Origin: Magnetovibrio sp. PR-2
Lineage (GTDB): Bacteria > Pseudomonadota > Alphaproteobacteria > Rhodospirillales > Magnetovibrionaceae
Direction: 5' to 3'
Assembly (NCBI RefSeq): GCF_036689815.1
Contig: NZ_JBAHUR010000001.1
Span: forward strand, 310,001 to 374,000
DNA: 64,000 nucleotides
Of this stretch, positions 40,231 through 60,434 are shown in pieces. The translations under genes and the position numbers were made by a program. Within the stretch, counting starts at the first letter, position 1. Every line of letters begins with the position of its first letter. The notes beneath the pieces were generated by a model. It was given only the letters and a program-made list of their open reading frames with translations. It did not search any database and was not told where the DNA came from.

Positions 40231-40307
40231 GGACCCTTAGCTCAGCTGGATAGAGCATCTGACTACGAATCAGAAGGTCGGGCGTTCGAATCGCTCAGGG
40301 TCCGCCA
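40231..40307 (+). tRNA. tRNA-Arg (anticodon ACG)
   Basis: 77 bases with CCA encoded. The acceptor stem pairs GGACCCT with AGGGTCC. The anticodon stem is TCTGA/TCAGA around the loop CTACGAA, which places the anticodon ACG at 40265-40267. The T arm carries GTTCGAATC. A34 is normally converted to inosine, letting it read CGU, CGC and CGA. It has its own promoter and a terminator 8 bp later. Confidence 0.97.
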
Positions 40308-40359: not shown

Positions 40360-41781
40360 TTAGTCCGGGGTCCAGGGCGTTTTGGGCGCGCTGTAGGGCG
40401 TGTTCAAGATGCCGATTTGGTTGCCCATGCGGGTTTGCACGGCGGGGCTGACCATGGTGGACCCGTTCGATCCTTCGATAGGCGAAAACAGCATAATGTT
40501 CAAAGAGCCACCGAAATAGAAGTTGCCGAACTCGGTGATGCCTTTTTTGACGGCGGCTCCATTTTTGATGTTTTTGGTGTTGAACACGACCGAGCCCACG
40601 GTATCCAAACCCACAGGAATGGACGCGACATAACCTTTTAAGGTGTCCGGCGCGCCGGGCGGGCGTTGGCCTTTGGGCAGGTTGGCGTATTCCACTTCCA
40701 GCACGATCACACCACGGGTGAAGCCTTGGAACTGGCTAAAGTCCGTGCCCGGGCGTCCGACGTTGCCGTCCATGGGCACCCAGTTGGGCCAATCGCTGTA
40801 GCCAAACGTGCCGTGGGCGTAAGGATCACCGGCTTCGACGATCTCATGATAAAGAATGGTGCCGTCCACGGGACTGTGGAAGTGGTGATAGGTGTTGGGC
40901 ATCAAAACACACGCCAAACCGGTGGCACCTTGGAACTTTTCTTTCAGTGCGCTTGGTGCGTTGGCCAACAGACTATCGACGGACATGGGGATCCCTTTGA
41001 CGTCCAACACCGTGTCGCGTTGTAAGGGGTTTTCGATCAAGCTGCGCACGACTTCACCGGATTTAACCTGCACCGGCTGAACCAGCGGGTTCATGATGCA
41101 GTCGGTGGGTGAGACGATGACGTATTTACGATCCGCCATGGTCACCGGGCGCGACGGATAGGTGCCGGTCGTGGGATCCATGATCAGATTGCGCGCAAAA
41201 AACTGGTTCCAGCTTTTATATTCGCTGGCTTGTTGCAGCACGTAATCTTTGATCTCCAAGCGGGGGTCGGCCACCCATTCGGCCACCTTGCCGGTGGACG
41301 ACGCGCTGTCCATGTGGGCTTTGTATTCTTCATTGAACTTGATCAGGAAGTTTTTCACGCCGTTGACGGCAGGTGTATTGGGATCACCTTTGACCAAAGC
41401 CACACCCTTGTCGTTGTGGTTATAGAGCCATGCGAAGTATTGGATGGAATCCAGCGCATTGTCGTTGGTGCCGCTGATTTGTGGCAGCAAAACGCAGACT
41501 TGGTCGTAAAAGGCCTTCACGGCATCTTTGAGTTCTTTGCCGTTGGAAGCCTGGGTTTTCCACGGGTTTTCAACGCTGCCCCCATATTTGTAGCCATATG
41601 GCAGGGGCTTTAGGCCGTCATAGGCTGCCTGAAAGGCGTTTTGCAGCGGTTTGTGTTTGGCGTACTGGTCGTCCAGATAGTCCAGCGAGCCTTGGCACGG
41701 CGATTTCGCCGAGGCCACCGTCGCGCTAAAGCTCACAGCCAATGCGCAGACGCTTGAAATCAAAAAGTTGTGCAGTTTCAT
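40360..41781 (-). CDS. Exported phosphatidylserine decarboxylase-like protein
   Basis: 473 residues with a signal peptide (about 1-25, cleavage near ASAKS), unusual for this family. GGAGG precedes the ATG. An N-terminal region (about 30-175) recalls the extra domain of some decarboxylases. The catalytic part has YKSWNQFFARNL, Asp227 in SPTD, the His-rich PNTYHHFHSPVDG (297-306), and the self-cleavage site FGGSL at 423-427, where most members have a GST triplet. Ser426, the pyruvoyl precursor, is kept but the next residue is Leu. It probably decarboxylates a phospholipid or another amino-acid-like substrate in the periplasm; the substrate is unproven. Confidence 0.85.
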   Translation of the reverse strand: MKLHNFLISSVCALAVSFSATVASAKSPCQGSLDYLDDQYAKHKPLQNAFQAAYDGLKPLPYGYKYGGSVENPWKTQASNGKELKDAVKAFYDQVCVLLPQISGTNDNALDSIQYFAWLYNHNDKGVALVKGDPNTPAVNGVKNFLIKFNEEYKAHMDSASSTGKVAEWVADPRLEIKDYVLQQASEYKSWNQFFARNLIMDPTTGTYPSRPVTMADRKYVIVSPTDCIMNPLVQPVQVKSGEVVRSLIENPLQRDTVLDVKGIPMSVDSLLANAPSALKEKFQGATGLACVLMPNTYHHFHSPVDGTILYHEIVEAGDPYAHGTFGYSDWPNWVPMDGNVGRPGTDFSQFQGFTRGVIVLEVEYANLPKGQRPPGAPDTLKGYVASIPVGLDTVGSVVFNTKNIKNGAAVKKGITEFGNFYFGGSLNIMLFSPIEGSNGSTMVSPAVQTRMGNQIGILNTPYSAPKTPWTPD

Positions 41782-42477: not shown

Positions 42478-43800
42478 TCAATCGGTGTTGAGCGCTTGGA
42501 TTTTGCGGTAAAGCTTGCGTTCGCTCAGCCCCAGTTTATCCGCAAGCTCCTTGCGCGTGCCCTTAAAACGGGCGAGTGCGTTTTTAAGGTAGCGCTGCTC
42601 GGCCTCTTCCAAGGTGACCAACGGTTCGGACAGTTCCGTTTCGAAATCCAGGCCATTGCCGCTTTGTAAAACCATTTCCATGGGCAGGCAGTCGGGCGTG
42701 ATGGGATTGCCGTCGGCCAAAAGGGCGGCGCGCTCCAAGATGTTGCGCAGTTCGCGAATGTTGCCGGGATAGGCATAAGCATAGAGCATGCGACGCGCAT
42801 CGTCGTCGATGCTGAGCTCTTGGCCCGGTGCCACGCGCTGCCAGATGGACGGGATCAACACGGCCAAGTCGTCCACCCGTTCGCGTAAAGACGGCAACAA
42901 GATGGGAAAGATGTTGATGCGGAAATACAAATCTTCGCGAAAACGCCCGTCTTTGACCATGTCCTTTAAATTGCGGTGGGTGGCGCAGATGAGACGGAAT
43001 TTCGCTTGGCGCGGTTCCGTTGAGCCGACCCGGCGAAACGTCGAGGTTTCCAAAAGCCGCAACAGCTTCACTTGCATGGGCAGCGGAATGTCGCCGATTT
43101 CATCTAAGAAAAGCGTGCCACCGCTGGCGGCTTCGACCAGGCCGCGCTTTTGGGCCAGTGCCCCTGTGAACGCCCCTTTTTCGTGACCGAACAGTTCGCT
43201 TTCAAACAGGCTTTCGGTCAGGCCCGAACATTCCACCGGGACAAACGGCTTGTCGTGGCGTTCAGACGCTTGATGAACGGCTTGGGCGACCATTTCTTTA
43301 CCAACCCCGGTTTCGCCCAACAATAAGGCGGTGGCATCGGTGGGGGCGACGCGCTGAACCAAGTCGAGCATGCGGCTGAACGCTTGGGAGCGGCCGATGA
43401 GGCCCTGGGCTTCGGGTGTGGCGCTGGCGATGGTGGAGTGGCGCATGATCTCGACAACATGGGTGATGTTGCCGTGTTCGTCGTGAACCGGGTGCGTTTC
43501 CACGTCCACGTGCTCTTCGCCGTGCTCGGTATGGTGAAGATGCAAAACGCGTTTTTTGGTGTTCGACGCACAGGTGCCGTCCAACGGACAACTTTCCCCC
43601 GCCCGGTCGCACGGCGTGTTGAAGTGGTGCGAGACCTCATAACAAAACCGCCCAATGACATTATCACCATAAAGTGCGTGGTAAGCTTCGTTGGCGGCAA
43701 CGATGCGGTATTCGGGGGTGAGCAACGCGGCGGGTTCCGAAATGGCCGAAAGCAGTTCGCCCGTTTCGGGGGGGGAAGTGGTGGCTGTGAACTCTGTCAT
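42478..43800 (-). CDS. Sigma54-dependent activator with Cys/His-rich PAS domain
   Basis: 440 residues from the ATG at 43800. The N-terminal PAS-like domain (about 15-125) has unusual residues: Cys53, His58, His59, Cys64, Cys71, Cys77, then a His-rich stretch (88-109), so it may bind a metal, heme or Fe-S group. The AAA+ domain has Walker A GETGVGKE and the sigma54 contact loop GAFTGA, and the arginine-rich ATPase end is intact. The C-terminus is a Fis-type HTH ([18 protein letters not shown]). No receiver domain, so it senses directly. Two palindromes lie just upstream of its start. Confidence 0.93.
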
Positions 43801-43811
43801 AAAGGGCATTC

Positions 43812-43860
43812 TGACAAATTTGTCATGACATCGCAAATAAAACTGACATATATGTCAGTT
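43812..43860. promoter_or_regulatory. Twin palindromes, likely activator binding sites
   Basis: TGACAAATTTGTCA (43812-43825) and TGACATATATGTCA (43844-43857) share TGACA-N4-TGTCA; the second extends to a perfect 20-bp palindrome. Their centres are 32 bp apart, about three helical turns. They sit 12 bp before the sigma54 activator gene's start and about 120 bp before the promoter at 43978, as expected for upstream activator sites plus autoregulation. Bases 43861-43977 are AT-rich and could bend. Confidence 0.7.
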
Positions 43861-43977
43861 TTAGGGTGAGGTTTGGCGCGGTGTTTAGAAGCAATATGTT
43901 AAGAGGTATGCGTTTATCGCGTTGTAAATAAGGCGGAATATAAAAAGGTTATGACATTGTTATAAAGCTGCACGGAG

Positions 43978-43994
43978 TTGGCATAGTTTCTGCT
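43978..43994 (+). promoter_or_regulatory. Sigma54-type (-24/-12) promoter
   Basis: TTGGCATAGTTTCTGCT matches YTGGCAYG-N4-YTGCW: GG at 43980-43981 and GC at 43992-43993, 12 bp apart as required. The predicted start is near 44005. The palindromic sites upstream and the sigma54 activator gene next door support it. Confidence 0.65.
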
Positions 43995-44004
43995 GTGTAA
44001 GGTG

Positions 44005-44182
44005 AAAACGTACAACTCCCAATTACGTACTTCCATGCTGACTGCATAACTAGAGACACCACGAGCCCGATATGGGGATAGCCTTCTCCCTCCCCCTCAG
44101 AGCTTTTCCATAAACGGCAAGTGGTGTCTCGCTCTTTTCCAAAGAGCCGTATTGGGCAAAGACCGATCAAGGAGAGGCGTCA
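44005..44182 (+). other. Structured leader of the sigma54 unit
   Basis: The stretch from the predicted start to the micropeptide has a 10-bp stem (GAGACACCAC at 44053-44062 with GTGGTGTCTC at 44121-44130) enclosing a C-rich loop, then a second hairpin (GCTCTT...AAGAGC at 44131-44147). The strong ribosome site AAGGAG follows. It may be a regulatory leader or a small RNA. Confidence 0.45.
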
Positions 44183-44260
44183 ATGGACATCTTGTTTTGG
44201 TTATTATCTTTTGTCGTTCTTGGATTTTTGGGCATGACCGTGGCGACGGTTATGGATTGA
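44183..44260 (+). CDS. 25-residue membrane micropeptide
   Basis: It starts MDILFWLLSFVV and ends TVATVMD. Residues 3-17 are strongly hydrophobic, with Asp near each end, which fits a single membrane helix. AAGGAG sits 8 bases before the ATG. The 5' leader, the sigma54-type promoter and the terminator 38 bp later bound it as a gene of its own. Size and hydrophobicity recall subunits such as CydX or KdpF, but the sequence is not one I recognise. Coding potential rests on the ribosome site and context, so it remains a prediction. Confidence 0.55.
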   Translation: MDILFWLLSFVVLGFLGMTVATVMD

Positions 44261-44297
44261 CCCCGAAACGCACCCATAACATCTCCGCAGATACTTC

Positions 44298-44328
44298 GGG
44301 GCTCGGTTTCGACCAAGCCCCTTTTTTT
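44298..44328 (+). terminator. Intrinsic terminator of the micropeptide unit
   Basis: GGGGCT pairs with AGCCCC, with an inner GG/CC after one mismatch, followed by seven T. It ends just before the stop codon of the gene on the opposite strand. Confidence 0.85.
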
Positions 44329-44329
44329 G

Positions 44330-44674
44330 TCAGTTGATGAAACGATGCAGTTCAACGGGCTGACCGCTCTGGATGTCGCCAAGTGCGCGCATGAAGCTGT
44401 TGGCATTGTCGCGAATGCGTGGCGGTGGCGAAACGTTCAGCATACGCTTTAACGCGCGCAGGTCTTTTGGCGAAAGCGAAGCGTTGGTCCGGCTCAGTTC
44501 GGCCTGAAAATTGTCTAGGTTGAAGGTCTTGCCCTGGGCCTTTAACGTCAAGGCCGCTTCGAACAGGGTTTGGTAGGGGGCGTAGCGGAACCTGCCCGCC
44601 AATACGGTCTCGCAGGGGGCACCATGCAAGACGGACCAGATCACAGCTTTTTCGGGGCTCAAGGCATTACACAT
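44330..44674 (-). CDS. Small helical protein of unknown function
   Basis: 114 residues. No signal or membrane segment. The sequence AVIWSVLHGAPCETVLAGRF...YQTLFEAALTLKAQGKTFNLDNFQAEL has the rhythm of a helical bundle and weakly recalls the N-terminal domain of DnaB-type helicases, but this is only a resemblance. It converges on the micropeptide unit. The 46-bp gap to the methyltransferase start at the other side suggests co-transcription after that gene. Confidence 0.6.
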   Translation of the reverse strand: MCNALSPEKAVIWSVLHGAPCETVLAGRFRYAPYQTLFEAALTLKAQGKTFNLDNFQAELSRTNASLSPKDLRALKRMLNVSPPPRIRDNANSFMRALGDIQSGQPVELHRFIN

Positions 44675-60393: not shown

Positions 60394-60413
60394 GGAAAAG
60401 TGGCATGTTTGTT

Positions 60414-60434
60414 GCTGATTAATCCATAATCAGC
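60414..60434. repeat. Second inverted repeat upstream of the hemerythrin gene
   Basis: GCTGATTA and TAATCAGC form perfect 8-bp arms with a 5-base loop, 80 bp before the gene start. Together with the larger palindrome it suggests regulation of the hemerythrin gene. Confidence 0.5.

Follow-up and report, generated by a model that had tools for sequence, protein, structure and literature searches.

The activator gene and the divergent unit

The locus comprises a gene for a FisR-like sigma54-dependent activator on the minus strand (42478..43800) and, divergent from it, a small unit made of two activator boxes, a sigma54 promoter element, two hairpins, a 25-codon micropeptide gene and an intrinsic terminator. 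All positions refer to the window, i.e. the whole 64-kb stretch of Magnetovibrio sp. PR-2 DNA that was analysed. As judged from its Pfam domains and from the alignment with homologs, the activator is formed by a PAS domain with three cysteines (C53, C64 and C71), an AAA+ sigma54-interaction domain with a GAFTGA motif (PF00158, 2.4e-68) and a Fis-type HTH (PF02954, 1.2e-9). Also on the minus strand, the gene at 40360-41781, adjoined by a tRNA-Arg at 40231-40307, encodes a 473-aa member of the phosphatidylserine decarboxylase family whose N-terminus resembles a signal peptide.

Box 1, a TGACA-N4-TGTCA palindrome (TGACAAATTTGTCA) at 43812-43825, was identified from the palindrome count in the window and from the box type at related loci. 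Box 2 (TGACATATATGTCA, core 43844-43857) forms part of a perfect 26-bp palindrome at 43838-43863, identified by the palindrome scan and by comparison with the box pair of a related genome, G007 (see below). Neither box is assigned to a strand. The box starts are 32 bp apart, and 11 bases separate box 1 from the activator ATG at 43800 on the minus strand, so that control by the activator of its own gene is plausible. These are exactly the only two TGACA-N4-TGTCA palindromes of the window, where 0.10 would be expected, and two were seen in 0 of 100 shuffles. The sigma54 -24/-12 element (TTGGCATAGTTTCTGCT, plus strand, 43978-43994) has a GG-to-GC spacing of 12 bp and a score of 12/13. Three sites of the window reach this score when both strands are counted, and the element alone is therefore weak evidence; the two other matches lie at 60400-60416 (plus strand) and 36625 (minus strand). 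The promoter position by itself would place the start of transcription near 44005. The box centres would then lie about 155 and 186 bp upstream, in agreement with the regulatory layout of sigma54 promoters (sites 100-200 bp away), and the G007 locus is arranged alike.

Downstream of the promoter element, all on the plus strand, folding predicts a long hairpin at 44053..44130 (hairpin 1, the core of the putative RNA), with a basal stem formed by 44053-44062 and 44121-44130 and a C-rich apical loop of 13 nt (TTCTCCCTCCCCC, 44084..44096). It is immediately followed by hairpin 2 (44131..44147, GCTCTTT and AAAGAGC around TCC), which has no U-tail and for which no counterpart was seen at the G007 locus. 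The micropeptide gene (MDILFWLLSFVVLGFLGMTVATVMD, 44183..44260) runs from an ATG at 44183 to a TGA at 44260 and is preceded by an AAGGAG at 44169-44174. The unit ends with an intrinsic terminator recognised by sequence and fold (44298..44328, stem 44298-44321, T7 at 44322-44328). Thus, the elements that the first-pass annotation had read from the sequence, namely two perfect palindromes at a sigma54-activator distance, a correctly spaced -24/-12 element, two leader hairpins, a hydrophobic 25-codon frame with its AAGGAG and a U-tailed terminator, were all recovered. The fold of the leader (44003-44186) gave a z-score of -3.21, equalled by 1 of 200 shuffles. The Rfam scan provided no family for the hairpin RNA, its sole match being a tRNA. 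A match to mmgR at 44266-44335 was set aside, since its 15.9 bits are below the gathering score of 41.

A FisR-like activator and its relatives

The activator shares 51% identity over 424 aa with a homolog from Cupriavidus metallidurans CH34, in which C53, C64 and C71 occupy the same positions. Each of the 85 PAS domains that were aligned has the three cysteines, a count biased by the fact that 83 of these domains were either chosen by (80) or gave rise to (three) cysteine-containing search patterns. We set these positions against what we take to be the cysteine numbering of JMP134 FisR. The C. metallidurans homolog is divergent from a gene of metallo-beta-lactamase fold and a gene of pyridine-nucleotide-disulphide-oxidoreductase fold, which we read by eye as a persulfide dioxygenase (PDO-like) and an SQR-like protein. 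This arrangement resembles the layout reported for FisR (PMC7315123, PMC9774590). An Acinetobacter baumannii protein named FisR is devoid of these cysteines, and the name FisR alone therefore does not fix the sensing chemistry. Inspection of the divergent unit in the window revealed no sulfide-oxidation gene (pdo or sqr) beside the activator, and for this reason we call the latter FisR-like and not FisR. By analogy, this kinship makes reactive sulfane sulfur the likely signal. The first-pass annotation knew of no described system with this micropeptide; the activator belongs to a known type.

Relatives were collected by scanning a genome collection with PAS patterns, which yielded at least 596 stretches, at least 551 of them confirmed. 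The best 80 of these at least 551 loci (L041-L120) were kept, and all counts in this and the following paragraph refer to them; their record titles indicate beta- or gammaproteobacteria or unclassified Proteobacteria. A TGNCA-N4-TGNCA box was found upstream of the activator in 54 of the 80. The zone extending from 150 bp upstream to 14 bp inside the PAS match, 13,120 bp in total, held 75 boxes, versus 37 in 663,806 bp taken from other parts of these loci. The distances between a perfect box and a second box with at most one mismatch peaked at 9, 31 and 22 bp (30, 20 and 19 pairs, respectively).

The divergent genes were compared with eight reference proteins, five of which were drawn from the surveyed loci themselves, using categories that are not exclusive. 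A divergent match within 3.5 kb was obtained for 64 of the 80 loci; it was absent in 16, 11 of which had the full 3.5 kb. The matches were to CcoG (36), CydA (18), the Rieske protein (12) and CydP (7); PDO was matched 16 times with the L043 reference or 15 times with the C. metallidurans reference, and SQR 3 times with the SQR-like L050 reference and 0 times with the C. metallidurans SQR. A Pseudoalteromonas record carries an annotated divergent cydP-cydB-cydX-ybgE cluster, in which the product of 'cydB' matches both cytochrome bd subunits. Part of the divergent genes lie behind -24/-12 elements. From sequence comparison, FisR-like activators facing ccoG, cydA or Rieske genes suggest a respiratory role beyond sulfide oxidation.

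We also searched for a C-rich loop in the leaders of these relatives, after the chosen -24/-12 match: a few short C-rich runs were observed and the 13-mer was absent. Several of these leaders encode CydP-like small proteins. As for mobile elements, PAS relatives of the activator occurred in 4 plasmid records and 0 phage records, and none was confirmed in viral contigs.

The putative hairpin RNA and the micropeptide in related genomes

Among 18 genomes of the family, a close ortholog of the activator (69% identity) was found only in G007, which belongs to another genus. When 317 genomes of the order were searched with a threshold of E 1e-95, scoring at most 5 candidates per genome, the only activators retained were that of the window, that of G007 and a weaker one in G133; the latter is a 54% match flanked by different box-like sequences, on a contig that ends soon after. 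In a class-wide sample of 385 genomes, the threshold was passed by the window's own activator only. No close ortholog was seen in the five further genomes available for the genus of the window (one of them 67% complete), and the locus is therefore patchy. The DNA of the unit had no match in the other 59 of 60 genomes searched, nor in the plasmid collection.

The G007 locus displays, in this order, paired boxes 31 bp apart, a promoter element on the divergent strand (TTGGCACGTTTCCTGCT) and a hairpin. This box pair is the sole close pair of the G007 genome, which contains 22 boxes versus 36 for the reversed control. The window genome (G000) contains 100 versus 53. In the light of these controls single boxes mean little. 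Among 18 stretches around other boxes (5 from G007, and 13 from G000 among the matches listed), none had a sigma54 match scoring 11 or more; one of them (L205) ended at the box, with a single side visible.

The long hairpins of the window and of G007 carry the same loop (UUCUCCCUCCCCC), and box pair, promoter element and hairpin keep their order and spacing: the 13-nt loop TTCTCCCTCCCCC is identical and lies 101 nt (G007) and 105 nt (window) past the start of the promoter match. The fold of the G007 hairpin region gave a z-score of -3.91, equalled by 0 of 200 shuffles. In the basal stem 10 of 10 pairs are kept, 4 of them changed on both sides and none broken. Slid alignments left 29-50% of the positions paired; among 500 shuffles, 29 did as well as the real stem. 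With two sequences and such a proportion of equally good shuffles, the covariation of the basal stem is suggestive only. As the hairpin is carried by two genomes only, its conservation rests on one comparison, that of the window with G007, a single cross-genus pair compared by sequence.

A T7 follows the G007 hairpin, and no peptide gene was found downstream, before the end of the opposing gene. A hairpin ending in a U-tract where the peptide gene is lacking designates the RNA as the conserved output of the locus. Consequently, the idea of a micropeptide unit next to its own activator had to be revised, the divergent unit of G007 being a candidate hairpin RNA. The arrangement of the window recurs beside the orthologous activator as regards palindromes, promoter and hairpin, but not the peptide. 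The broader proposal, that the activator controls a small sigma54 unit through the upstream palindromes, gained support from conservation, both from these three elements in G007 and from the boxes in 54 of the best 80 of at least 551 loci. Palindromes and peptide are each conserved in relatives, the peptide away from the activator.

The 13-mer loop sequence itself occurs in 44 of the 317 genomes of the order. We folded 30 of these loci, setting aside those with more unpaired bases but without a -24/-12 match; only in the window and in G007 does a -24/-12 match stand 101-105 nt upstream of a motif that has 11-12 of its 13 bases unpaired. In two further loci (L169 and L175) the -24/-12 match is looser, and 5 and 4 of the 13 motif bases, respectively, are unpaired. 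In three other genomes (G078, G001 and G003; loci L163, L184 and L185, around position 1501), TTCTCCCTCCCCC was observed just before strong terminator-like hairpins, which perhaps represent another kind of C-rich 3'-end RNA.

Homologs of the micropeptide were searched for independently of the activator. Using the single query in the 18 genomes of the family, we detected one in G007 (E 3.1e-4) and one in G004 (0.013); a profile search in the 317 genomes added one in G005 (6.7e-4) and a second G007 copy (0.0087). Matches at E of 1 or less were obtained in 88 of the 317 genomes, the remainder, from 0.023 up, not being counted as family. The resulting five members from four genomes have in common the pattern LF...V..GF.G.T, and each is preceded by a ribosome-site-like sequence. 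Outside the window, the peptide genes are located away from the activator. Sequence comparison thus indicates that the peptide is a real small-protein family, distributed separately from the activator. A common AT-rich stretch resembling CATTAG...AATATA was observed upstream of the micropeptide genes of G007 (two), G004 and G005 (L123 1489-1572, L157 near 1779, and on the minus strand L124 near 1563 and L129); it is possibly a common promoter of these genes.

Several candidate relatives of the peptide were discarded. In the 385-genome class sample, four more matches with E of 0.001-0.005 each fell within a frame of 174-219 aa and were taken as chance. The PDB, searched with the peptide profile, yielded nothing but P-II proteins matched over a short GFxGMT stretch (E 0.075), which was likewise attributed to chance. 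The best Pfam match had an E of 0.012 and NCBIfam gave none. We also considered CydX. PF01654 was found in 1 of the 10 genomes searched (G006) and not in G000, G007, G004 or G005; since no cytochrome bd subunit I was found in the window genome and no family match was convincing, this identity was rejected.

Finally, we looked for pairing between the C-rich loop and the leaders of the peptide genes. In each of the two G007 leaders, a stretch of 9 nt is perfectly complementary to the loop (GGGGGGGGA, which starts 49 nt before the start codon, and GGGGAGGGA, which starts 37 nt before it). Elsewhere in G007 such a 9-nt complement was present in 3 of 145 gene leaders (about 199 kb) and 17 of 3596 random windows. 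In a second background, partly picked for the complement, 9 nt were reached by 4 of 89 windows of RBS-like type and by 26 of the 2498 others. The duplex energy of the first leader was equalled by 3 of 145 gene leaders and 10% of the RBS-like windows; that of the second, equalled by 16 of 145 and 19%, is unremarkable. The complements in the G004 and G005 leaders are limited to 4 and 6 nt, and no C-rich-loop RNA was found in these two genomes by the 13-mer search of 317 genomes and the folding of 30 loci. In the window, pairing of the loop with the leader of the adjoining peptide gene was dismissed, as it amounts to a 5-nt run and 300 of 1000 shuffled loops were as good. Genome-wide, loop complements showed no enrichment; they numbered 8 in G000 versus 14 for the reversed control and 10 in G007 versus 6, one in each genome being the locus of the loop itself. 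By eye, several of these places coincide with ribosome sites, e.g. of a pyruvate-dehydrogenase-like gene (G000, L213) and of a thioredoxin-like gene (G007, L214). As G000 and G007 have no such target in common, we claim no RNA target. The pairing of the loop with the G007 peptide leaders is a lead, recognised post hoc and with mixed controls.

Proposed mechanism, alternatives and known systems

The reading that we favour, with a probability of roughly 60%, is that of a predicted transcript carrying a C-rich-loop regulatory RNA, driven by a FisR-like activator and sigma54 and fused in the window to a micropeptide gene. It builds on the kinship of the activator, the type and pairing of the boxes, the position of the promoter, the hairpin with its invariant loop and the peptide family, which sequence comparison establishes. 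In this mechanism, reactive sulfane sulfur, or a related thiol-oxidising signal, would probably link the cysteines of the activator PAS domain and raise the ATPase activity; the inference is modelled on sulfane sulfur sensing via cysteines, which raises ATPase activity (PMC12170894). The activator would bind both boxes, whose spacing is close to three helical turns, and drive sigma54-RNA polymerase at 43978-43994. Transcription under sigma54 dependence would yield a product of about 325 nt with a short 5' tail, the long hairpin, the second hairpin, the 25-codon gene and the U-tailed terminator. The long hairpin would display UUCUCCCUCCCCC as a single-stranded loop, and the RNA would most likely pair this loop with G-rich leaders and ribosome sites, in the style of GsrN on katG, a step proposed by analogy and with less support than the others. 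The 25-codon gene would encode a one-helix membrane peptide as a second, co-induced output in the window. In G007, where the peptide genes lie apart from the unit, they may serve as RNA targets.

The alternative that survives best, which we nevertheless hold to be unlikely, takes the unit as a sigma54-controlled micropeptide mRNA with a long 5' leader, in which the hairpins would serve to stabilise the mRNA or to gate its translation. It fits the reality of the peptide family, with a ribosome-site-like sequence before all five members, the CydP small membrane proteins that lead the divergent operon in some relatives (7 of the best 80 of at least 551 loci), and the ribosome site of the peptide, which is predicted to be paired in the full window transcript; the G007 locus, which keeps promoter and U-tract-ending hairpin without the peptide gene, argues against it. 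In an evolutionary extension of the favoured reading, a sulfide/persulfide stress circuit would respond with RNA in place of enzymes. The FisR-like sensor would have given up the genes that it usually faces, for respiration or sulfide oxidation, and taken on a C-rich-loop sRNA, which would form one module with a new family of 25-residue membrane peptides, in trans in the genus of G007, where both peptide leaders carry loop complements, and fused into one dual-function transcript here. This extension is doubtful, the more so in view of the duplex energies of the control leaders and windows.

The hairpin could also be a conditional terminator or attenuator of the divergent transcript that does not act in trans, read-through in the window yielding the peptide. 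The T7 after the G007 hairpin is in line with this, as are two alternative pairings in the window, one of 11 bp (44065-44075 with 44147-44157) and one of 9 bp (44122-44130 with 44174-44182), which exclude or interleave with hairpin 1, the 9-bp one covering bases that adjoin the ribosome site of the peptide. Yet helices of at least 11 bp arose in 18 of 300 shuffles, an attenuator does not need an invariant 13-nt C-rich loop, and in G007 no gene that could be attenuated was seen before the end of the opposing gene; we regard this explanation as improbable. Pure autoregulation, in which the boxes, 11 bases away from the activator start, would act on the activator promoter alone and the divergent unit would be a chance assembly around one of three equal-score -24/-12 matches, is very improbable: the promoter, its spacing and the hairpin are found again in the genus of G007, and divergent genes, some of them preceded by -24/-12 elements, are seen repeatedly among the relatives.

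The favoured reading, that of a regulatory RNA fused to a micropeptide gene, can be set beside several known systems. In E. coli, SgrR lies beside a divergent RNA, SgrS/SgrT, that both base-pairs and encodes a small peptide. The window activator likewise adjoins a divergent peptide-encoding RNA, for which base pairing is putative; SgrR is not a sigma54 activator, however, and no sequence kinship is claimed. The Qrr RNAs and CrcZ are small RNAs made from sigma54 promoters under a dedicated activator, two features proposed here as well, whereas activators, signals and RNA structures differ. The locus also gives a concrete, testable context to a micropeptide family of five members for which the databases returned no convincing match.

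In Caulobacter, the C-rich loop of the small RNA GsrN acts on a G-tract in the katG leader (PMC5869019). The predicted window RNA resembles it by its C-rich loop, with putative targets, and differs in that GsrN is a member of the general stress response; no sequence similarity is claimed. The window activator resembles FisR of Cupriavidus pinatubonensis and A. baumannii in domain order and in the divergent, here predicted, sigma54 target (FisR as described in PMC9774590, PMC7315123 and PMC12170894); the three PAS cysteines of the window activator are those of the Cupriavidus type, as seen in the C. metallidurans homolog. A literature search, to which subscription journals were mostly outside scope, returned no FisR-controlled small RNA or micropeptide among the matches listed. 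In the sources consulted, the targets described for FisR are sulfide-oxidation operons, and those of FisR and other sulfide or persulfide regulators are enzymes and transporters; the window would offer a hairpin RNA and a micropeptide instead. If our reading is true, a sulfane-sulfur sensor with a small RNA as its dedicated output and a micropeptide closely linked to it would add a post-transcriptional arm to the sulfide/persulfide response, and a sigma54 example to the RNA/peptide dual units.
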